Shown here piece by piece: positions 2,642 to 61,567 of a stretch of DNA of 64,000 bases. Source of the DNA: Candidatus Altimarinota bacterium (lineage in GTDB: Bacteria > Patescibacteriota > Gracilibacteria > BD1-5 > UBA6164); assembly GCA_022565555.1 (NCBI GenBank), contig JAIUMN010000001.1:1-64000 (forward strand), written 5' to 3'. The translations under genes were made by a program, and so were the position numbers. Each line of letters opens with the position of its first letter. The stretch's first letter is position 1. Below the pieces are notes generated by a model, which did no database searches, had not been told where the DNA came from, and saw only the letters and a list, made by a program, of their open reading frames with translations.

Positions 2642-4684
2642 ATGAAAGCAGAAGAAAAACGCTTCCTTCAATTTCTTGAATGATCTGAAAAAAGTTTTGT
2701 TATTCCAGTGTATCAAAGAAACTATGACTGGAAACGAGAACAATGTAAGCAACTCTTTGATGATATCGTACAAATTATTCATGATGACTATAGAACTCAC
2801 TTTATGGGAACTATTGTTGCGTTTCAAGAAGATGGGTATGGAAAAGAGCTTCTTATAATAGATGGACAGCAAAGACTCACTACAGTATCTCTCATACTTC
2901 TTGCTATCTATAAAGCATTAGAAAATGGTGACGTACCTGATGCTTGAATATTGAAAGGAAAAATCTATGAAGAGTTTCTGATTAATAAATATTCTGAAGA
3001 CCAATCAAAAAAAGTACGACTCAAGCCAGTAAAAGATGATAGAGAGGCGTTTAATTCTATTTTTGAATGAGAAGAGAAAGAGGATTCAAACGTGACTATT
3101 AACTATCATTATTTCTATGAGAGAATTATCGCTTGAGAGGTCAGTATAGAAGAACTCTACCGGGCTATAGAGCAGCTTATCATTGTAGACATCAGACTGA
3201 AAAAAGGAGAAGATGATCCACAGCTTATATTTGAAAGCCTCAACTCAACAGGGCTTGACCTCGAAGAATCAGATAAAGTACGAAACTTTATTCTCATGAA
3301 AGAAAGCTCACAAAAGCAAGAAGAACTTTATAGAGATTATTGGTACAAGATAGAAAAGAACACGAGTTTTAATGTAAGTAGTTTTCTCAGAGACTATTTA
3401 ACTATGAAAGATAGGAGAATCCCAAGAAAGGATAAAGTCTACCTCATATTTAAAGAGTTTATTCAAAAGAAAAATATAGATGTTCATGAACTTCTTATTG
3501 AACTCTTAAGATATTCAAACTATTATTGCAGTATTATTAATTCTGTAGATAGTGATAAGCAGATATCAGATACACTCAGAAGAATCAATAAACTTGAAAC
3601 AGTAGTTGCCTACCCTTTTTTCCTTGAAGTGTATGAGATGGAAAAACAGTGAATTATAAGTCACAAAGAATTATGAGAAATACTTTCAATTATTGAATCT
3701 TATGTCTTCCGAAGATTCATATCTGATGTACCAACAAATGCACTCAATAAAACTTTCATGTTACTATGAAAAGATATAGGATCGTATGATGACTATAAGG
3801 AAAACTATCTTGAGGTATTCAAACATGTATTACTCAGTAAAACAGGTTCTCAAAGATTTCCAGATTATGCAGAATTCTGAGCAGGTCTACTTACAAAGGA
3901 TATATACAATACACAAGGTAGAAATAAGCTATACTTACTTGAAAGGTTAGAAAACTATAATCATAGAGAAAGTGATATAACAGCCCTCATAGATGAAGGT
4001 ACTCTATCTATAGAGCATATTATGCCTCAAACACTTACACCAGCTTGGAGAAAAGAACTTTGAGATGATCATCAAAGAATACATGAAACATACCTCCACA
4101 CCCTTGGAAATATAACACTTACAGGGTACAACTCTAAATATTCAAATAAAAGCTTTGGAGAGAAAAAGAGTATGGAAAAATGATTTAATGAAAGTGTTTT
4201 ATTTCTCAACAAATATCTGAGTTCTATAAATGAATGGACCGAGGAATGTATTCAAGAGAGAGCAAATATTCTTATGAAGAAAGCACTTGAGATATGGAAA
4301 TATCCTGAATCTACGTATGTGGTGAAAAAAGATGTAACAAAATCGTTTACTCTATCAAGTGAAGACTCATTCACAGGAAAATGGATTGTTGAGTGGAGCT
4401 TTGAAGAACAAAACTATGGAGTTGAATCTTGGAAAGATTTTTATGAATGACTTATAAAAGCGCTTTATGAAAAAGATAAGCTCCTCATGAAATCATTTCT
4501 CAGAGATTATAATCTCTCTAACAAGTTTTTAGAAGCAGATGACTGAACAAAGTATCTCTCAAAAATAGATACAGATTTTTATCTTATAGTAGGAACAAAC
4601 ACGGACTCAAAAATCTCAGCTATGAAGCTCATACTTGATAGGTTTGATATAGACCCAGATGAAGTAAGTTTTTATATAAAATAG
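2642..4684 (+). CDS. DUF262/DUF1524 (GmrSD-like) restriction nuclease
   Basis: 680 residues with UGA=Gly. The N-terminal DUF262 (ParB/sulfiredoxin-like NTPase) domain shows VYQRNYDW near residue 22 and DGQQRLTT near residue 78. The C-terminal half has the DUF1524 HNH-type signature IEHIMPQTL followed by LGNITLTGYNSKYSN. These two domains form GmrS and GmrD, a type IV enzyme that cuts modified DNA using NTP; here both are fused in one chain. The C-terminal 150 residues are an extra region without a recognised motif. It is 3 bp upstream of the type III mod gene, so it is probably in the same defence operon. Confidence 0.85.
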
Positions 4685-4687
4685 TAT

Positions 4688-6427
4688 ATGTCACAACAAC
4701 AAAGTCTCGAAATCCCTGAAGAAGTAAAGGAGCAATACTTTCAAATCAAATCCTCCACGGTCCAAGATATGAAGGACCTTCTTTGAAGTATGAAGTGAAA
4801 CAAGGAAAAAGACCTTCAAGCACGTATACGAGAGCTTGAAGAAGAGCTTCAACATCTCCGTAACTCTAAGAAATATGGGCTCGTATGGGACTCAGAGCGA
4901 GAACCTGAGCAAGTTGTTATGGATTGTCAGACTAAGCTTCCTATTCTTGAGGAAGTCAAAGAGCGAAAAATCATCTCAGATGATTCATGAGATTCAAATC
5001 TTCTCATCGAGGGAGATAACTATCATGCACTTCAAGTTCTCAGTTATACTCACAAAGAAGCGATTGATGTGATTTATATAGATCCTCCGTACAATACAGG
5101 AAACAAAGACTTCATCTACAACGACAAGATAGTAGATAGTGAAGATACTTACAGGCATAGTAAGTGGCTCAACTTTATGGAAAAGCGTTTACGACTTGCC
5201 TATGATTTACTCAAAGAGGATGGAGTGATTTTTATAAGTATTGATGATAACGAACAAGCACAACTCAAGTTACTCTGTGATGAGATATTTGGGGAAAATA
5301 ATTTTATTGCAAATATTTGTAGAAAGACAAGAAGTGGATGATGAGCAATGTCTAAACATATAGCAACAAACCATGATTACGTATTGATTTATGGAAGAGA
5401 TAAATTTCTGGTACAAGATTTCTTTACTCCTTACGATGAGAAATATTTAAAACGATATAAAGAGATAGATGAGAATTGAAGATATTTTTGGGATACTTTT
5501 ATTAGAAGAAGAATATGAAATAACAATGTTTATAAAATTAAATTACCTAGTGGAAAAGAAGTTTCTGATAAATGGAATCTAAGAGAAGAAAAATTTTATG
5601 AAATGTTAAAAGTTTGAGATATTAGAATTATTGAAAATTGAGAGAATTGGAGTGTACAATTTAAACAAAGAATGTGAGATTCTTGAAAAAAATCATGAAG
5701 TATTATAAATGATTTTAATAATACACAAGCAACGGAAGATATAAGAGATATATTTAATGATAGAGCTTTTGATTATCCTAAACCAATCAATCTAATTAAA
5801 TATCTTTTACAAGTAACTTGTAAATGAAATAACATTAAGGTACTTGATTTTACAGCTGGTTCAGGAACAACGGGTCATGCAGTTCTGGACCTCAACAAAG
5901 AAGACGGAGGAAAGAGAAAATTTATCTTGTGTACGAATAACGAAAACAATATCTGTGAAGAAGTGACCTATGAACGAGTCAAGCGAGTAAGCCAAGGATA
6001 TACAAATGCTAAAGGAAAAGAGATTGAGGGGCTTGGGGGAAATCTGAGATATTATAAAACAGCATTTGTAAAAGTAGAAAACTTACAGGAGGTGACGGAT
6101 GAGAAAAAGCTTGAACTTACGTATAATGCTTGAGAACTCCTTGCTATCAAAGAGTGAATCTATAACGAACGTCTCAAGACTGAGTACGGACAAGTCTTTG
6201 AAAATATGCATGATATCGTGGCAGTATACTTTAAGGAGTCTACTCGTGACCTTGCACCTATGGCTGAGGAACTTGGCAAGATACAGGCTGAGAAGTGAGG
6301 AAAAGTTATATTGTATATCTATGGAAATCCCTATGGACTTGAAGCGTTTCCTATGATTGCAAATCTTGAACTCAAGGATATTCCTGATCCTATTCTAAAA
6401 GTTTATAGGGAAATTAATAAAGTATAG
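4688..6427 (+). CDS. mod: type III restriction-modification DNA adenine methyltransferase (Mod)
   Basis: 579 residues. The catalytic motif IV DPPYNTG (about residue 129) precedes the SAM motif FTAGSGTT (about residue 389), the permuted order of beta-class N6-adenine methyltransferases used by type III systems. The N-terminus has a coiled-coil-like stretch rich in Glu and Leu. The central target-recognition part (about residues 218-390) differs in base and codon use from both ends: nearly all its glycines are TGA, while the flanks mostly use GGN. Mod alone methylates the recognition site and supplies specificity to Res. It begins 3 bp after the GmrSD-like gene and ends 4 bp before an unusual third gene. 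Confidence 0.93.
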
Positions 6428-6431
6428 AAGT

Positions 6432-7853
6432 ATGAAATGAATACAAACAATATCTGAATACTTTTGAATTTCAAAAGAGGATTTAGAATCAAAATGAGTA
6501 TATGATAGAATCTTATGATTTGACTCTAGATTGTTTGTTGATCCATTTTTATTAAAAGAATTAGTTATAAATGAATTTAATTGAGCTGAAGAAATCTTAC
6601 GTAAAAGAATTAAAAATATTATTAAGTTATTAAGACTGAGTGAAGAAGAAAATGATATAGCTTTCAGAAAAGCAGCAGAGTTAATTATTACAAAGGAAAC
6701 TAAATGAGTATGAATAGGATATTGAAATGATACGGATGATGGCAATTCTATATGACCAGTTCTTGCACATAATATTGCATGAATAGGTAAAAAGATTATT
6801 GGTTATTGAATAGATGATCCTGAGATTTTTGAACTAATTTGATTATTTCAAGAATGATTTTGAGCAGATAGAATTAGTGATTTCACAATTTGAACATTGG
6901 AAACTAATTTTTTAAATTTTACTGAAAGAGTTTGTTATGAGCTATGAATCACAAATATAAAATCTATTGATTTTAAAGACGGTAACTCATATATGTTACC
7001 TTATATAACTGAACAAGAAAAATATGTTCTATTTATTCCACAAAAATTACTAAGAAATTTACCTATATCTCAGGATGCAGAGAATATCGAACATGTAGTT
7101 GAGTTTAATAAAGAATTGAGAGATAGACTGAATAAATTAGTATGAAAGGATTGGAGGGAATATATACAGACTATTGGAGCAAGAAAAGAACATATTTTAA
7201 CAGAAGAAAAATATGTAAAGGATCTCCTAAGTTTTTATAAAAATAGACCCTCAATCTCCTATGATTTTATTAATGATCCATTATGAAGAGATTTATGGCT
7301 AAGTATCTGAAAACAATTTGCAGAAAGATTTCCGATACAATTTGAAAATACAGAACTTAAATCTTTGGAAGATATTAAAAATATAGTCAGAAAAATGATT
7401 ATTCATTTTCAAAAGCTAACAGAACATAATCAATTAAATAAGACCTTTACAAAGTGAAATTGAGCATACGATGAAAAATATGTTCAAAGAATATTTTTAG
7501 CAATAGCAGATACATTCTGTATTGCCAATAACTTAGATTTGAGTCCAGAGTCTAAAAAAAGCAATTGACCTGTAGATTTTAAAATGAGTCAATGAAATAA
7601 GAAAGTAGTAGTTGAAACAAAGTTATCAAAAAACGATATTATAAAATGAATTGCTCAAATAGAAGAATATGAAAAATGAGAAGATGCATATTGAATTTAT
7701 TTAATTATAATAACATGAGATCATCAGACAAAGCTCGAAAGATTTGAAGAAATAATTGATGAATTAAAAGAGAAGTGAAAGTATACTCCTGAATATTTTA
7801 TAATTGATTGAAGATTAAACCCTACTCCAAGTAATTTAAAATTAGTTTTATAA
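6432..7853 (+). CDS. unrecognised protein with PD-(D/E)xK-like C-terminus, inserted between mod and res
   Basis: 473 residues. About 29 of some 35 glycines are TGA, and leucine is mostly TTA, so codon use is far more AT-biased than in mod or res on either side. I recognise no family for residues 1-370. The C-terminal 100 residues contain GPVDFKMS followed by KKVVVETKLSKND, which fits the D...ExK core of PD-(D/E)xK nucleases, then a helix with IAQIEEYEK. Its tight spacing (4 bp after mod, 3 bp before res) places it in the R-M operon. It may be an accessory nuclease, a specificity partner or a separate abortive defence gene; the nuclease call is inference from the motif. Confidence 0.7.
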
Positions 7854-7856
7854 GGC

Positions 7857-10202
7857 ATGCAACTCAAAAAATTCCAAGAAGACACTATCGAAAGACTCAG
7901 AAAGGCATTTCTGAATGCTTGGCAAACGGGAGAGAGAAGAATCCCTCTTATACTAAAGTCTCCTACTTGAAGTGGGAAGACTATTATGGCGGCTGAGTTT
8001 TTGAGATGACTGGTTGGTGACCCTCAGTTTCAGGAACAAAAAGCTTATGTATGGGTATCTATCAGTGACGAGATAGTGATGCAAAGCAAAAAGAAGTTAT
8101 TTAAAGTATATGATGGGGCTTGAGAAGTAAATCTTCTTGATCTCAATGACTTGAGCAATAAGAGTCGCATGAAGAATAATAATGTCTTTTTTGTGAACTG
8201 GCAAAAAATCAAAGCAACAAATAAGGATGGAAGAAAACTCAGGCGTGAAAGTGAGAAGTCTCGAAGTGACCTTGGGATATTTGATGAGTTTATAGAAAAC
8301 ACTAAGCGAGCTGGTATTGAACTCGTAATGATTATAGATGAAGCACACATGGGAAGTAAGACCGCTTTATCTCAAGAGATATTTGACCTTATAAACCCAA
8401 GAATTATTTTTAAGATAACCGCAACTCCTGAAGGCAATGAAGAACTTGAAGCATATAGAAAAGGAACTTTTGTAGAAACTAAGCGAGAAGATGTTGTGAG
8501 AGAAGAACTTATCAAAGACAAGATTATTACTCAGACAAAAGAGGACCTTGAGCGTGTTACTGAACACAGCTATGATGAAGATAAAATGCTTCTTGAATTT
8601 GCATATAGAAAGAGACTTGAACTACTCAGTTACTATCAAGAGCTTGGATTGGATATAAATCCTTTGGTCCTCATACAACTTCCAAATGATGACCAAGCCA
8701 CAAAAGAATCAATGCAGAAAACAAAAGAAGAAACGGTAAAAGATTTCTTAAAAACAAAGTGAATCCCTGACGAGGAGATAGCAATATGGCTCAGTGAGAA
8801 AAAAGAAAATCTTGAGTATGTTGAGAAAAATAATTCTATGGTGAGTTTTCTTATCTTTAAGCAAGCAGCCGCAACTGGATGGGATTGTCCAAGAGCTGGA
8901 GTACTCGTGATGTTTCGAGAGATAAAAAGCGCTACCTTTCATACACAAACAGTAGGACGAATACTCCGTATGCCAGAGGCAAAGCACTACCCTATACCAG
9001 AACTCAATACTGGATATCTCTATACAAACTATGAGAGAAAAGATATTAAGATACCAGACCAAGCAGGACCAAATAAAGCCTTTATCTATAAAGCTCAGAA
9101 GAAAGCACATATTGAACCGCTCAAACTTCTCTCTACCTATCTTGGAAGAATTGATTACAACGATCTCAACTACACTTTTCAAGACGTTCTTTTTACTGTA
9201 CTCAATAAGTATTTTGATATTGATGATACTGGGATGACTGACTTTGCAGAGAATCAAAAAAAGCTTGAAAAAATCTGAGTACGCATACAGGAGACCTATA
9301 TTACTCATAGTATGATAGTAGATGTCGTGATAGAAAACTATGATAGATTTATCGATGACCTCAAGAAGTCAGGTAGTGACTATGAAACAAACATATCTCT
9401 TTGAGACTTAGAGAGACTCTATGACTTACATGTATATAATCTTATCGCTGGACAAGAAGTAGATACGAGAAGATATGCACCAGCGCGTAGCTGGAAAGCA
9501 TTTAGAAATGCTATCACCACTTGGTTTGTAGAATATATAAACCCAAAAAGACCAGAGTTTAAAGCAATGTTTATAAATGACCTTCAAAGACCAGATAGTA
9601 TTTTTCGAGAAGTGATTGGGGAAGCCTTAGAGATATATAAGCCTATACGTCTTGCAGAGACAAAAGCAAAGGAAATCAGACAAGAGCAAGATATCCAAGT
9701 AACTGTACCGAGACTAGAAACATTTTATACTGATGATTACTCTGAGTTTATAGATTATACACTGGAGAAGTGTGTAGTAGAACCATTTTACTTTCATCAT
9801 AAGAACTTTAAAAATGAGATGGACTTTATGAAGTACCTCGAAGAAAGTGAGAGTGTTGATTGGTGGTATAAAAACGGAGATAGTGGACTTGAGTATTTTG
9901 CAGTAAAATATTTTGATGAGTTTAAAAATACCGAAAGACTCTTCTATCCAGACTGGATAGGAAAACTTAAAAATGGGAAGATATTTATTATCGACACAAA
10001 ACAAGGCTTCACCGCAACTTCATCTGAAACAAAAAATAAAGCTGAGGCACTTCAAGCTTGGATACAAACACAAACAAAACTTGATATAGTATGAGGGATA
10101 GCAGTACAAGTATGAGGAATATGGAAACTCAATACTCATAAAGTATACAAAGTAGATAGAGACTATAGTGAGTTTGAAAGTTTAGGAGAAGTGTTGAAGT
10201 AA
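7857..10202 (+). CDS. res: type III restriction endonuclease, helicase/nuclease subunit (Res)
   Basis: 781 residues. Superfamily 2 helicase motifs are visible in order: Walker A SPTGSGKT near residue 37, DEAH in MIIDEAHMGS near residue 160, KITATPEG, and motif VI HTQTVGRILRMPEA near residue 365. The C-terminal endonuclease core is FYPDWIGKLKNGKIFIIDTK, with the Asp and the DxK arrangement of PD-(D/E)xK enzymes, near residue 700. Res translocates with Mod and cuts 25-27 bp from an unmethylated site in the known systems. All motifs are intact, so the system looks active. It ends the operon that starts at 2642. Confidence 0.93.
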
Positions 10203-54459: not shown

Positions 54460-55020
54460 ATGCTCTATATACTCCCAACTGACACCTGTTATGGAATCTG
54501 ATGTGCTTTTCATGACAAAGATGCCTATGAACGTATCTATAAACTCAAAAAAAGAAGTTTTGATAAACCACTTGCTATCTTAGTCGAGAGTTTTGATTGG
54601 CTTGGAAAAAATACGGAACTTACAAGTGAACAAGTGGATTTTTTGAAGAACTATCATAGACCATTTACTATACTCACTGAGAGTTCGCCAGTACGCGCGT
54701 ATCTCGAGTTTTATACCGATGAGGAAGAAGCTTTTATCAACAAAGATATCTATACGCATATCTCGTTTCGAGTAGTACATAATGACACCCAAAAGAAACT
54801 TCTCAAACAAACTTGACCTCTTTGGCTTACTTCAGCAAATCTTGCAGATGCTTGAGAAAGCTATAGTCCTCTTAAAATAGAGGAAGATTTTGGATACCAA
54901 ATATCCACTTGAGAACTTGTATTTCACTCGACATGAGAACTTAATAGTGCAACTCCTCCATCAGATGTATTTCGTTTTATCTGAGAAAGCTTAGAAATAG
55001 AGTATGTGCGTAAAATCTAA
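54460..55020 (+). CDS. tsaC: Sua5/YciO/YrdC family threonylcarbamoyl-AMP synthase
   Basis: 186 residues: LPTDTCYGIGCAFHDKDAYE, RIYKLKKRSFDKPLAILVES, LTSANLADAGESYSP and STGELNSATPPSDVFRFIGE follow the YrdC fold with its KxR and SxN residues (KKRSFDKP, TSAN). It makes threonylcarbamoyl-AMP for t6A37 of tRNAs reading ANN codons. Follows rsmG by 14 bp. The final 4 bp overlap the opposing gene. Confidence 0.9.
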
Positions 55021-55340
55021 ATCGATATAATTTTTGCAGCTTGTTCTCATACCTGTGGAATAACATATACTGGATTACAAAACACAGGAATTTGTGGCGC
55101 TGGAGGAATCACTCATAGCGTATATGCTGGTGGAAATTGACAGCTAGGAAGATTGAGTGGTTCACGCTCTTCTGCATCATTTGATCAAGCTGGTTGAGCT
55201 CAAAGTGCGGTGATAATACTCGTCGCTGCAAGGATTCTAAAGATACTATTTCTTGTCACGTCTTGAACTAAAATTTTTATATCATCTATTTTATCTTGTC
55301 GTATAAGACTCTTATTTGCATCTAATAATATTTTATTCAT
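55017..55340 (-). CDS. small protein with one membrane segment, 107 aa
   Basis: MNKILLDANKSLIRQDKIDD, then a hydrophobic stretch IFRILAATSIITALGAQPAG (membrane span or late signal), then a proline- and cysteine-containing tail (NLPSCQFPPAYTLG, IPVFCNPVYVIP). No family recognised. Located 100 bp downstream of the wall-hydrolase cluster, separated from it by a terminator. Confidence 0.6.
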
Positions 55341-55448: not shown

Positions 55449-57266
55449 TTACGAAATAAGGGATCATCAAGTTGAGCGTCATTGATGCGCTCTTAGTGCC
55501 ATTACAATTGGCATAACTCAGATACGTGAGTCTCGTGTTTCACGACTAAATACCCCGTCACGAACAAACATACCTCACTGACTTTCATATGCTTGACTTC
55601 CAGCCATTACATATGGACTCATAAGTCATCTATTCCTATATCACAAGCCATTAAATCTTTCAGCGAAATCAGCTTGTCATCTCAAGTCTCCTTGAGTAGG
55701 TCTTCCATAGGATGCTCTTGGTCAAGTGAGAGCATCAATCGCTGCGTCTTCCCAATTGTTAAAAAGGATTCAAACTGGAACAATGGTAGTTCTTCTTCCA
55801 AGTGGTTGTCCATTATGGAGATATGTATTGAAGTTAAAGCTCGATTCTCTATAATGGATACCTGCTATAAGTTCCCAAGGAATTCATGTTCTTGACGCAA
55901 TCGTTTCATATCTTCATTTAAAACGTAATGCGGTACTTACAGCTTGAGCAAGGATTCATTGTTTTTCAGGTACTACATCAATCTCTCCAGCATCTATAAG
56001 AGCTTGTATTTCTGGATTTATTTGTCCATCTACCTGTCTTCCATACGTTTCAGTTTCTTCAATTTGTTCAGGAGTAAATCCATATGCCTCCATAACTTCT
56101 TCTCTTCTTCCACTATTATGTTGATTCATAAAATAGGAAGCGAAATAATGTGTAAATCTTCCATCATCTGTCAGTGCCTCATGCTCAGTATTCTCTCTGT
56201 GATACATAAATCTTTCTTCAGCTCGCGCTAAATCTGTAAGAAGTATCTCTAATCTTGTGCTATCAATTGAAGAAAGCTCTCCATTATCTCAAAGCGATTC
56301 AGGAGCTGGGAAAAAAGCTTCGAGTATAAAAGCATGATCATATCATTTTTTCTCTGCTTCCTCAGCTATTTTTCTCTCTATATCAGCCCCTTCAAATCAC
56401 TCAAGTTTTTGCTCAATTTGGGCTTGTATATCGGATATATCATCCACACGTTCACTTACTTGTAGCACTGTTCCTTCATGAATTTTTAGTCTTTCACCAT
56501 TCTCAGAAAAGAATTCTCAATTCAATCACCTCCTCTGATAAACAACTCATGATTCATCTGTAAAAGCTCTAATACGTGGTTCTCACGCTGTAGCCTGACC
56601 GAGTGTTGTCCGTAAATATAATTCATTATTTTGATGAAAAGTAAAAGTAATTCGAGAATCTTGTTCAAGCTGGCTAAGTGTAAATGGAGGATTTGTAATG
56701 TATTCAAGTCTATTTGCAACTGGTACTTCTGTAAGAAATCGCTCATTGTTTATAGTTCACATTTCCGCTAGGATTTCTTCATCTCGTTCTATTATATTTA
56801 CTGGCTCTGGAGTTTGTTCAATATGATCTCACAAAGCTTGATGAATCTCATCTCGGAGTCTTTGGATATCACGTACAGTATTGGTATGTATCCTTATAAG
56901 TCGTGGGATAAGTTCATTTCTGATACGCTGATACTCTGGATCAGATGGTCCATATCAAGCAACTCTTCACTCTGCGATAGAAGTAAGTGATCCTATGAGA
57001 TGCTGCGCCCAACCAGATATAAACTGTGATTCTCATTCAAGAGCCTGAAGTTCTTCTGTCTTATCTTCAATATATTGACGAAGTTGCTCTGGAGTTGCAT
57101 TTCTTCAAAATGTCTCATAGTCACCACTCATACGAGCTCTTCCTAGCTCAGAACTATCTGGTGAAGCTGTTCTATCTTCAGATACACTTCACGCTAATCC
57201 TCCGGACATATCATAGAGCGCAAATTGCGAGTGAATTTGTTTTAGGATTTGTGTTATTATAAACAT
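55449..57266 (-). CDS. exported protein with C-terminal lysozyme-like domain, common N-terminal tag
   Basis: 605 residues. Starts MFIITQILKQIHSQF, the shared 15-residue tag. A long helical, acidic middle contains EERFMYHRENTEHEALTDDG and FMNQHNSGRREEVMEAYGFT. The C-terminal 150 residues, TGIPWELIAGIHYRESSFNF then NTYLHNGQPLGRRTTIVPVG and WEDAAIDALTGPRA, resemble phage and secretion-associated muramidase/transglycosylase domains with a catalytic Glu in HYRESS. Probably cuts peptidoglycan glycan strands. Last gene of the cluster. Confidence 0.78.
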
Positions 57267-57280
57267 AATTTTTTATAAAA

Positions 57281-57317
57281 ATATAATACCCTGTAAGGAT
57301 ATCATATTTTTATAAAA
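57281..57317 (-). promoter_or_regulatory. conserved upstream cassette, copy 1
   Basis: 37 bp nearly identical (2 mismatches) to 58647-58683 and at the same distance, 15 bp, from the downstream start codon. On the minus strand it reads TATGATATCCTTACAGGG, then TATTATATTTT; TATTAT could be the -10 box. Confidence 0.65.
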
Positions 57318-57339
57318 CTCGCAAAAAAATAACGTTTTA

Positions 57340-58632
57340 TTAGGCAGCGAGAGCTCCAGAAGATTCACGAATAGTCCTGAGTTGAGAAAGTACTTGTTGT
57401 GGACTTACTAAGGCGTGATTTAAGCCATCTCAAGCATAATAACTTGCTCATGACATATCTCGAGGAAAAGAAGCCCATTCCATAGAAACATTTCTCATGA
57501 AAGTCATCTCATCTATCTGTCAAGACTGAAATCTTTGAAGTCATCTTTCATTAAGCTTTCCAAGAGTGAAACGCATTTGAGCATCTTCGTTGAATAATTC
57601 ACCTTCGCGCAATAGACCACTCTGAATTGCACCATCTAAAGTAGAACGGATAACTTGACAAGCTCAGACAGCTGAAGAAGGACTTCAAGCTTGCACCATT
57701 CTATCTTGAAATTGTCGGACTTCACGAACCGTCATAGTTGTAATAGGCTGTGGTGGTTGTACTGGACTTCATCCATATATAATGTCTGGATCTCCGTTTG
57801 CTTCAGCTTGATAAATAAGCTCTACAAGCCCTTGTACCCCCGGAGTAAGATTTTCTATATCTATATCCATAGTATTTGGTCCAGGAGAAGGTCTTGCTCC
57901 TCAGGTATATCCACTCACTACTTGACCTCAGCGCACTTGCGGAAGTCATGCTGGAGCGTCGTTTCAAGGATAGGTAATAGGAGCTCCTCATTGTGGAGAT
58001 TGTATCGTAATATTTCCGGCTTCATCAACTGTAATTCACATTTCACTCATAGCCTCAGGAGAAATAGGAATTTGTATTTCTCAGTTTTCATTCATAAGCT
58101 GAGTCATAAGCTCTTGAAACTCTTCTGGAGTAGTTGGCATTTCAAGTCATTCTGTTTGCTCGACAAGAGCCTGGAGTCGCTCCATTTGATTTGCAAACTC
58201 AAGCATATCAGCTTCTAGATTTTCAGGATTCAAGTCTGGATTATTCTCAGTACTCCAACTATAGAGTGTAGCGAGAGTATCCGGTTCTATTCCTACATCT
58301 TCTGCAAGGCTTAATAAACGTTCAGTTTGTAGAGATTCGGGAGAAGTTTCTCAAGTCTCTCACACTTCCTCAAATCATGCCTCATCTCATTCTTGGGATT
58401 CAACTATTCAGTTTTCAGCTCTATTAAGTCAACTTAATCCATCTTCTAAATCTCTCCTTCCTCTATCAGCTTTTCTTAGTGCTTCATCAGCATTTGAAGT
58501 AAGATTTTCTGAACTCAAAGGATCAGGATTTTTTCCTACTTGATCTTCTACTCTTTCAGAAGGACCTTCTGGAGTATTTATATGAATCAGGTGAAAGGAA
58601 AACTGAATACTTATTTGTTTTAAAATATACAT
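57340..58632 (-). CDS. exported protein with phage-type muramidase domain, common N-terminal tag
   Basis: 430 residues. Starts MYILKQISIQFSFHL (shared tag). The middle is acidic and Asn/Glu rich. From about residue 265: GLVELIYQAEANGDPDIIYG, TTMTVREVRQFQDRMVQAG, AVGACQVIRSTLDGAIQSGL, RFTLGKLNEGGLQRFQSGQI, VSMEWASFPRDMSG match the phage-related muramidase family (catalytic Glu in YQAEANG). Predicted target is peptidoglycan. Second from last of four genes with the same layout. Confidence 0.82.
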
Positions 58633-58646
58633 ATAAATACATAAAA

Positions 58647-58683
58647 AATATAATACCCTATAAGGATATCATATTTTTATAGA
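58647..58683 (-). promoter_or_regulatory. conserved upstream cassette, copy 2
   Basis: Matches 57281-57317 except at two bases; 15 bp upstream of the muramidase gene start. Contains TATTAT on the minus strand after TATAGGG. Confidence 0.65.
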
Positions 58684-58722
58684 ACGGGCAAAAAAGACGG
58701 AAAACTATCTTACGCTCATTTA

Positions 58723-60000
58723 TTATACTGCTGACACTGCATCAAGAGGGCGTCATTCGCTATTTCATAGAGCTATAGGCATAAATACCCTATATTGTCA
58801 TTCAACTGGTGGTCTACGACTTCAACCTGGTGATTGAGCAATCTGTCAAAAATAATAGCTTCCATTTCCAAGTGCAATCTCAACATGTCCAAATTGTGAA
58901 AAAGGAACCGATCCACCTGGTCAAGCAGCATAGGAAATAATAGCTCATGGAGGTGCATCTTGAGCGGATACTTCTACTTCTCTATAATCATTTGGGCGTG
59001 AAGCAAGCATTTGAGACCAAGTATATCAGTGACGTGGTCTATCATTAATTTTTAATTCTGGCTTATCAATTGAATCATAAAAACCATTAAGTGCATCTCA
59101 AGTATTTTGTCAACACATAAATTCTTCTCCTGTAGAAGGAGTGCATGTTGCTGCATATTCCGCGAGTCTTTGTCCTGTAATTCAAAACTCAGCCAACTGT
59201 TCAGGAGTCATACGTGCAGCTTCTCATCTAAAGAAGTTTGTATTTCATGGTCATTCCCCTCTTGCACTCTCCCGTGCTTGTCATATTTGCTCGGTACGCT
59301 GATCTATCTGAGCTTGCCTTTGAGGACTTGCAGTCACTCTTTCTTGTTGTAATCTTTCTTCTTCTTGATCTAAGATAAGCTCAGTACGCTCTCGCCAAGA
59401 TTCAAACCTCTCTTGCATAAATCTAGATTGTTCCTCAGGACTTAGGGCTTCAAATTCCACGATTTCATCAGGAGTCATTTCTCAAAATACCGACTGGAGA
59501 CTTTCACCATCAAGTCACTCAATCCCAAGAGTAGTCATCATATCTAGAATCTCTTCATTTTTTCTATTTTGTATTTGTGTTTCTAGATATTCTTGTTGCT
59601 CTTCAGGGGTTTTACTTTCAAAATCTCTTCGTTCATCTTCATTCATTGCTGTAATAATTTCATTACGTAATTCAGGATTTATAATGTCTTCAAGCTCTGA
59701 GTCTCAAGTATCTTCTATAGTATCTCTTCAAGCTTCTTGTGTTCACTCAAATTGATCAGATGAATCAACTCCTTCTTCAATCTCACTCAATCGTGCCATC
59801 CTATCATCTAGCTCTCAATGTGCAGCTTCAGCTGCTCTCGCAGTTGTATCAGCGTTATGAGCAAGTCACTCCGGTGAAACAGTGGGAGACGAAGTACCTT
59901 CAAGTGGATTTACATCTTCAATTCACCCTGCTTGTTCAGGTCCAGCAAATACATATATCTGTAAATAAAATTGTCGAAGAATATATTGAAAAGTAAACAT
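58723..60000 (-). CDS. exported protein with CHAP/NlpC-like C-terminus, common N-terminal tag
   Basis: 425 residues. Starts MFTFQYILRQFYLQI (shared tag). The middle is helical and acidic (EFEALSPEEQSRFMQERFES, QEEERLQQERVTASPQRQAQ). The C-terminus has CTPSTGEEFMCGQNTGDALN, a possible catalytic Cys, followed by APPWAIISYAAGPGGS and SQFGHVEIALGNGSYYF with the His, the pattern of CHAP or NlpC/P60 amidase-peptidases. It would cleave peptide cross-links; the call is by motif only. Confidence 0.68.
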
Positions 60001-60031
60001 GTTAAAATTTTAATAATAAACTATATCTAAA

Positions 60032-61567
60032 TTAAGCTACTCATGAAGTTCAAGTGCTACTTGGTTGGGGTGGAAGTGTTGCTTGTTCAGACTGAAATCA
60101 ATATCCTCAACCGTGTCGATTTACTGCTTCTGCGAGACGAATCATAAACTCATCTGGTGCAACTACGCATCATAAGCTATTTTGACCAGGAAACCTTCCA
60201 TCACGTCCACCATGCCACCATCTTCCTCATCGTTCTTGTCATTCTGGAGATCGTATCTCTGCACCTGTAATTGTTTGAGCATTTTGATTTGCTCGTTGCC
60301 CAACTCAAGCAATAGTTACACTATTAAAGTTTTGGACTCTTCAAGTTTGTGTTCTTCCGTCTCACCTTTGACCAGGTACGTCATGATCAGCTCGGACTTG
60401 TGGACCAAATCCGTTTCTTCAGATTGATATAGGAGATTCTTCGATACGAGGAGGTGTACCAGGATATGATACAATTGCGATAAGGTTTGAACATGAAGCG
60501 AGCGCTATAGGTCGATCTGTATTAATATCCCCAGCTGTATTCATAAACTCAATAGCTATTCAATACCACTGACTTGGAAATCTTGTTTCAATTATTTCTT
60601 TATGTTCTGGATTACGTAACTCTGAAACTTGTGACTCTGTAAGTTGTGTATCTGGAGTAAATTCAGTCAGTGTATCATAGGTAATATTTCCTGCATCAGG
60701 AGATATCTCATTAGGTCTTCATTGATATACCTGTCCTCAAGTAGAAGATGGAGACCCAGCTGGTCATACAACTGTCCCCCCAGGAGCCTGCCTGTATCAT
60801 GAAGATTCTGGATTTATAGCAAATCCTCCATTTGAATCTCTTCTTACATCTATTCACATAGCAGCTGCTGCGGCTGGATCAATAGTCTGAGTTGCGGCTA
60901 CTGAGTCATTTTGATCTAGTGAGTTATATATTTCTAAAAATTCACTTGTACGTAAAGTACTCATATCTCTTCACTCTGATTCTGCGATTCTTGATATCTC
61001 ATCAATAAGTGCTTCATAATTTCTTGTAATTTCTTCAGGATTCCAAGCTTGAGCTCCATCAAAATCTATAGCTCGCAAATACATGAGAAGTTGTGGATTT
61101 ATTAATCTTTCCTCAGCAAGTCACTCAACAAACTCTTGTTCTAAGAGACGTATAGGTCAATCTTCTCAATTATGTGGAAGTTCAGTTTCAGCTATCCTCG
61201 CGATGCGCGCTTCAAATATTTGCCTTCTCATTTCAGGATTTATTTCTCCTCAAACTTCTACTCAGTTTTCTTGAAGTGTTTGCATTTCCTCTTGAGTTGG
61301 CTCAATGGTAGTCGAAAGTGTAGATATCTCTTCTTCCCTTATCAAGGCATCGAGTCTTTGAGTCATGATATCTGACATCCTGCTTCCTTCATTAAGTCAA
61401 TTTCATACACTCACTTCTAATCATCTTATTGCCTCAGTAGGATCTTGATTTTCTGGTCTTTGCCTTGGTAAGTCACTTTGTTCCTCGTTAACTCTTGCTT
61501 CTGGAGCCTCTTGATAGCTCATACACTGCATAAAAAATAGAGAAGAAATTTGTTGTAAGAAAAACAT
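60032..61567 (-). CDS. exported protein with L,D-transpeptidase-like motif, common N-terminal tag
   Basis: 511 residues. Starts MFFLQQISSLFFMQC (shared tag). Helical acidic N-terminal half (TIEPTQEEMQTLQENGVEVG, EMRRQIFEARIARIAE); a central Gly/Pro-rich linker; C-terminus GRWWHGGRDGRFPGQNSLGC followed by VVAPDEFMIRLAEAV. HG with SLGC about ten residues later fits the HG-x-SxGC catalytic pattern of YkuD-type L,D-transpeptidases. First gene of the cluster and farthest from its terminator. Confidence 0.65.

Follow-up and report, generated by a model that had tools for sequence, protein, structure and literature searches.

Four consecutive genes, A to D, on the minus strand of the window (the whole stretch of DNA analysed, 64,000 nucleotides) start with one short N-terminal sequence, indicated below as the tag, which is real, translated and conserved across genera, and is nearly exclusive to wall-active proteins. 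That it acts, in a way comparable to YSIRK sorting, as a lineage-specific N-terminal signal by which wall hydrolases are targeted or exported appears somewhat probable. The genome, of a Gracilibacteria type in which TGA is read as glycine (about 1.02 Mb, 49 contigs, 97.7% complete), is that of a tiny Gracilibacterium, probably dependent on a host. The four genes are open solely when TGA is translated as glycine (code 25), and contain 21–27 TGA codons each. All D-family relatives that bear names are 'Candidatus Gracilibacteria' MAGs.

Gene A (60032..61567, minus strand as all features reported here; 511 residues with TGA as glycine) is composed of the tag, MFFLQQISSLFFMQCMSY (61514..61567), an acidic, helical and Gly-rich middle and an L,D-transpeptidase-like end. 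The latter carries a His/Cys block (WWHG...SLGC, of the HG...S/T-x-G-C type), kept in an untagged homologue (L200, 42% identity); the motif suggests a YkuD-like L,D-transpeptidase, and neither Pfam nor the PDB provides a match for A. In gene B (58723..60000, 425 residues) the tag, MFTFQYILRQFYLQIYVF (59947..60000), is followed by an acidic helical middle and by a C-terminal domain which, by alignment, is CHAP-like: B aligns to positions 4096-5901 of locus L130, the same-sequence copy L023 scores with the Pfam CHAP profile (E 0.009; B itself does not), and a Cys and a GHVEI motif are conserved in L130, L078 and L030. Gene C (57340..58632, 430 residues; tag MYILKQISIQFSFHLIHI, 58579..58632) features the middle common to A, B and C. 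Its end is a muramidase of phage-endolysin type: residues 260-423 match the phrog_90 endolysin family (E 1.1e-13), and an untagged homologue (L075, 7177-7944; 34%) has a Glu in common with C at the position proposed as catalytic.

Gene D (55449..57266, 605 residues; tag MFIITQILKQIHSQFALY, 57213..57266) contains a coiled coil, a conserved beta domain (about residues 163-320) and a lysozyme-like end. The beta domain, for which AF2 gives a confident model and a PDB search no match to the fold, forms with its relatives a family of 25 members, several ending in muramidase, SLT or CHAP domains. Ends of D homologues sharing it score with Pfam Muramidase (7e-27) or SLT (7e-7), while the own end of D matches neither profile; a first contig scan of genomes with D as query gave no match. 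Downstream of D lies a small ORF of 107 residues (55017..55340), with a polar N-region followed by a signal-like hydrophobic stretch and no match in a Pfam search. Similar small genes come after wall-enzyme genes in relatives, and the ORF may be a companion of the enzymes.

The four proteins had been described as unrelated. This is right in part only, as A, B and C have middle or linker sequence in common: after removal of the tag, A and C align over 186 residues (30%, E 6e-9), B and C over 82 residues (E 8e-5). A set of modular paralogues whose ends have been exchanged is the best description of A to D.

The one 15-residue start that the preliminary description had attributed to the four genes is present letter for letter in all of them, and in 946,008 six-frame residues, covering about 46% of the same genome, these starts are the only four occurrences of its pattern. 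Over the whole genome, intact matches to a DNA pattern are A, C and D only; a looser one adds B, five tiny chance frames (13-63 codons) and one match with an in-frame stop, no fifth tagged gene being found by these searches. A PSSM for which only tags found in other genomes were used, 18 in number, and no sequence of the window, ranks the four genes first among 409 proteins of the genome (D 11.7, A 9.3, C 8.4, B 7.7, in this order). The fifth protein scores 0.3, and the mean is -27.7 (sd 8.5).

The tag is not confined to these four genes, as the preliminary description had conceded it might be: tagged genes in wall-enzyme clusters are also found in relatives. The DNA form of the tag matches about 100 times in 48 genomes of the family; 67 matches are open over 11 codons, and 18 start real genes. 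Of the 49 remaining open matches 46 were checked, and all end within 73 codons. In 17 of the 18 cases the tagged gene sits in a wall-enzyme cluster, often in a tandem pair, the enzyme types being NlpC/P60, CHAP, muramidase, VgrG3-like lysozyme, SLT and PG-binding; some enzymes of the same clusters carry no tag. Pfam assigns tagged genes of other genomes to NlpC/P60, CHAP, VgrG3-like lysozyme (5.7e-16, 1.9e-16, 5.6e-25), PG_binding_1 (8e-7, 3e-10), Muramidase (7e-27, 4e-25) and SLT. The 18th gene (L077) encodes a SU10-like phage capsid, a number of exceptions close to chance by a rough estimate. Among 543 proteins from the family loci, true tags score 21.3 or above with the PSSM, the capsid 5.9 and all others -0.5 or below; the best of these last are variant tags on PG-binding and SLT proteins of another genus. 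A phage origin was discarded: no relatives of the D family were found in IMG/VR, and a single capsid gene with a tag-like start is roughly the number due to chance. A stricter pattern, applied to 353 genomes of the class, matches 18 times in 15 genomes, with 14 of the matches inside the family, while the reversed control gives 4. The four matches outside the family (L109-L111, L117) do not start the genes called there, and the tag is thus a feature at family level.

The family consensus spans about 18 residues, M-[YF]-[FTI]-[LIF]-x-Q-[IL]-[KRx]-x-[QST]-[FI]-[Lx]-x-x-[LIV]-x-x-[YG], followed by a loose linker rich in acidic residues, Gly and Pro. When 22 tags are compared without gaps, identity amounts to 0.39 at residues 2-12 and to 0.07-0.11 past residue 18; conservation at positions 2, 4, 6, 7 and 11 is inflated, these having been fixed in the pattern by which most relatives' tags were found. 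Positions 3, 10, 12 and 15 were left free by the family search patterns, and position 15 is hydrophobic in 21 of the 22 tags, the exception being a Cys. In the mean hydrophobicity profile the moment is greatest at 100 degrees, indicating an alpha helix with residues 4, 7, 11 and 15 on one face, in keeping with the amphipathic character proposed from the window alone. For gene D, AF2 predicts a helix at residues 2-15, at low confidence, ahead of a disordered stretch and the coiled coil. The absence of a basic n-region, also proposed, is true for this species, where residues 1-18 have a net charge between 0 and +1; in other genera this charge reaches up to +4.

Different codons are used in 39% of the identical residue pairs of the 22 tags, indicating that conservation acts on the protein. 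These synonymous changes, a mark of coding constraint, speak against the notion that the tag is an artefact, a translated leader with the real starts located downstream. Internal ATGs are indeed available in A (codon 16) and D (codon 20), but a Met is missing from this region in B, in C and in most relatives, and the internal Met of A is replaced by Ala in a relative (CMSYQEAPE against LASYQEAPE in L070). In addition, the promoters of C (58667..58692) and D (57300..57325), both TTTGC-N14-TATGATA, make the ATG of the tag the first in the transcript. An artefact of this kind is very hard to credit.

The history of the tag was followed on homologues. In several other genera, the counterparts of A, C and D feature neither the tag nor a signal peptide, and the enzymes are therefore presumably able to work without it; many close homologues being untagged, the tag is not obligatory for the enzyme class. 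In a tree built for the D domain, gains or losses of the tag number 4-5, at least two of the changes being forced, so that the tag behaves as a separable module. Coming and going in this way on the tree of one domain, and present on NlpC, CHAP, SLT, VgrG3-like and muramidase proteins, it is poorly explained by common descent only, that is by an ancestral N-terminus kept through duplication and swaps of the catalytic end, with no signal function. The similarities of A to C and of B to C beyond the tag, and the tandem arrangement of the paralogues, speak for such descent, and part of the sharing does go back to a common ancestor of the N-terminal regions; the tag is, on the other side, far better conserved than the 70 residues which follow. 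We regard this explanation as improbable.

The tag was also compared to Sec signal peptides. The maximal hydrophobicity over 11 residues (maxKD11) is 1.04-1.35 for the tags of the window and 0.4-1.9 for those of relatives, against 2.2-3.3 for lipobox signals of the same genome. The hydrophobic core of about 10-15 residues, typical of classical Sec (type I) signals, is not found in the tags, and an A-x-A-like cleavage site ([ASGVI]-x-A at residues 15-28) is present in just 6 of 22. Ten N-termini, searched against Pfam and NCBIfam signal models, YSIRK and KxYKxGKxW included, gave no match with an E of 10 or less once HMMER's filters had been applied. A C39 double-glycine leader was also discarded: GG occurs in some linkers, but the spacing of the leader, judged by eye, is absent. 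The preliminary description had considered that the tag might turn out to be a standard signal peptide, found on all kinds of exported proteins. This is not what is seen. The usual Sec signals of this genome do not show the motif.

The tag might still be an atypical Sec signal, made of a conserved n-region and a short, weak core, which the usual translocon would handle without any particular route or destination. The tags of genus g5, and some more, combine 2-4 net positive charges with a core of 9-10 residues (FLQLMFIGLI, FFKLMIFGLF, FLACVFSFA; maxKD11 1.65-1.86), and a D homologue (L020) starts with MGIFKHYLHNYKLLLLSSFQANA, which resembles a true signal peptide. In some other genera the hydrophobicity of the tag and its basic charge are both higher, so that it may have descended from a Sec signal. 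The tags of the window, however, are no more hydrophobic than the average N-terminus of their genome (55th-66th percentile among all). Together with the scarcity of cleavage sites and the lack of the motif in ordinary Sec signals, this makes an atypical Sec signal unlikely.

Export itself is supported by a test independent of the tag, based on lysine composition. In this genome the median K/(K+R) is 0.41 for proteins with a Sec signal and 0.67 for soluble ones (p ~1e-14); A to D, at 0.03-0.14, lie at or below 42 of the 43 Sec-signal proteins and below 183 of the 184 soluble ones. The same depletion is seen in two other genomes (G004 and G007), not in all relatives. Being lysine-poor like Sec-exported proteins, A to D are predicted to be exported as well. 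Such a composition fits exported, not cytosolic, proteins, and weighs against the tag being a membrane- or complex-docking helix, which would keep the enzymes bound to the membrane from inside until release by lysis or by a partner. The amphipathic helix, followed by a disordered stretch, would suit docking, and untagged enzymes of the same clusters could ride along; this role is nevertheless considered distinctly unlikely.

The neighbours of tagged genes are housekeeping genes (RmuC, RsmG, YrdC, RecG), and not the secretion or phage-tail-like genes with which the preliminary description proposed to check for clustering. Tagged genes have in common the element TTTGC-N14-TATGNTA and a hairpin ahead of the ATG. 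Most of the hairpins stand behind an upstream gene of the same direction, and therefore look like terminators. A special regulon was rejected, the promoter being a general one (33 matches against 2 for the reversed control, in four genomes).

T4SS-like systems are often served by wall hydrolases. A VirB4/TraG-type ATPase (PF19044) is present in 45 of 47 family genomes, the one analysed included, in tagged and untagged genomes alike. The patescibacterial T4SS (PMC12102498), ubiquitous in the family, is a possible export device; yet its VirB4-like locus adjoins ftsA/ftsZ, no tagged genes are found near VirB4-like genes, and the ATPase is also found in untagged genera, so that a linkage to the T4SS was rejected. 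Cargo signals of extracellular contractile injection systems (eCIS; PMC11495950, PMC11297309) are similar to the tag, in that an N-terminal segment is common to effectors with different catalytic ends. Tagged genes, in contrast, are not near tail-like genes, and the contractile sheath (PF04984) is absent from all 47 family genomes, with positive controls; since the sheath gene is lacking, a cargo signal for contractile injection (eCIS or T6SS) was rejected. The preliminary idea of a dedicated secretion route, loading effectors for attack on a host or prey, finds no support so far, neither a sheath nor a T4SS linkage being seen. It is conceivable, if doubtful, that Gracilibacteria possess an export or delivery route of a kind previously unknown, and that the tag is its address, a non-Sec amphipathic helix handing diverse wall-lytic enzymes to a dedicated machine directed against the host or prey wall.

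Phage endolysins and virion-associated muramidases resemble the tagged proteins in their catalytic ends, the end of C belonging to phrog_90 and several tagged relatives having VgrG3-like lysozyme or SLT ends; they differ in that the tagged genes are chromosomal, amid housekeeping genes, and no such tag is recognised in these phage families. A parallel in kind is offered by YSIRK/GxxS, a short conserved motif in the signal peptides of a subset of staphylococcal surface proteins (PMC5962339, PMC11841062): in both cases a short N-terminal motif sets apart a small subset of the secreted, wall-related proteins of one lineage. YSIRK, however, lies within a full-length Sec signal peptide, while the tag has another sequence and a weak hydrophobic core, or none. 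The available sections of the Gracilibacteria and Vampirococcus literature (PMC11452946, PMC8080830) describe Sec, type II and IV systems, type IV pili and wall hydrolases, and make no mention of such a tag; a literature search for the N-terminal motif was empty. The tag is specific, undescribed in the available sources, and not a member of the YSIRK family.

Under the favoured reading, of a lineage-specific targeting or export signal, A to D would be exported cell-wall enzymes of the Gracilibacterium. SecA or translocon components, or a dedicated receptor, would recognise the amphipathic helix of the tag on the inner side of the cytoplasmic membrane, and the helix would lead this one class of cargo out of the cell, as YSIRK/GxxS sorts a subset of staphylococcal wall proteins. 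We infer that the tag may cause export, that some machine would read it, and that the enzymes may act on the wall of a host or prey.

To our knowledge, it is not known by what means the enzymes which open the host wall leave the cells of host-dependent Gracilibacteria and of their predatory relatives, the Absconditabacteria. The tag offers a handle on this problem: it picks candidate wall enzymes in a genome without annotation, may be fused to a reporter, and may serve to pull out a receptor. As a sorting signal, it would join the few known cases in which an N-terminal motif sorts one class of cargo.

Between about residues 163 and 320, the 605-residue tagged putative wall enzyme D contains a conserved beta domain, shared by 24 homologues and marked by the pattern FTFxGxxNxELYLxTTAGQ...GEFF...RLxIHEGT. 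The domain is modelled with confidence, and no fold match to the model was found in PDB.

The wall-enzyme genes are adjoined by small companion genes, both in the window (55017-55340, minus strand) and in relatives (L070, 5572-6162; L124, 9053-9580; L086, 5079-6298); their products feature a polar N-region of 25-60 residues, followed by a signal-like hydrophobic stretch, and those tested have no Pfam match. A rigid promoter, TTTGC-N14-TATGNTA, is located at 57300-57325 and 58667-58692 of the window and is also present in G004, G005 and G007, genomes of relatives: it is repeated across whole genomes, and the reversed control gives almost no matches.

In other genera, an AI-2E family transporter gene, or a lookalike, recurrently adjoins wall-enzyme genes (L020, L027, L031, L075, L078 and L122, where it spans 7290-8555 and matches PF01594 at 7.5e-27). 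In genus g4, untagged wall-enzyme operons are followed by ABC exporter-like genes (L125, 5199-8715; L126, 9647-11383; L123, 11168-12895). In several family genomes, ftsA and ftsZ adjoin the VirB4/TraG-like ATPase gene (L204, L206, L207).

A tag-like start, MFILKQLKVLFMAF, is also carried by an SU10-like major capsid protein (L077, 7971-9284), where it is probably due to chance; this bacterial family is probably the host of the phage encoding this capsid.

In the own-genome sample (window and L089-L108), Sec signal peptide proteins are strongly depleted in lysine relative to arginine, with a median K/(K+R) of 0.41 vs 0.67 for soluble proteins. In this lineage, a low K/(K+R) may be a compositional sign that a protein is exported.
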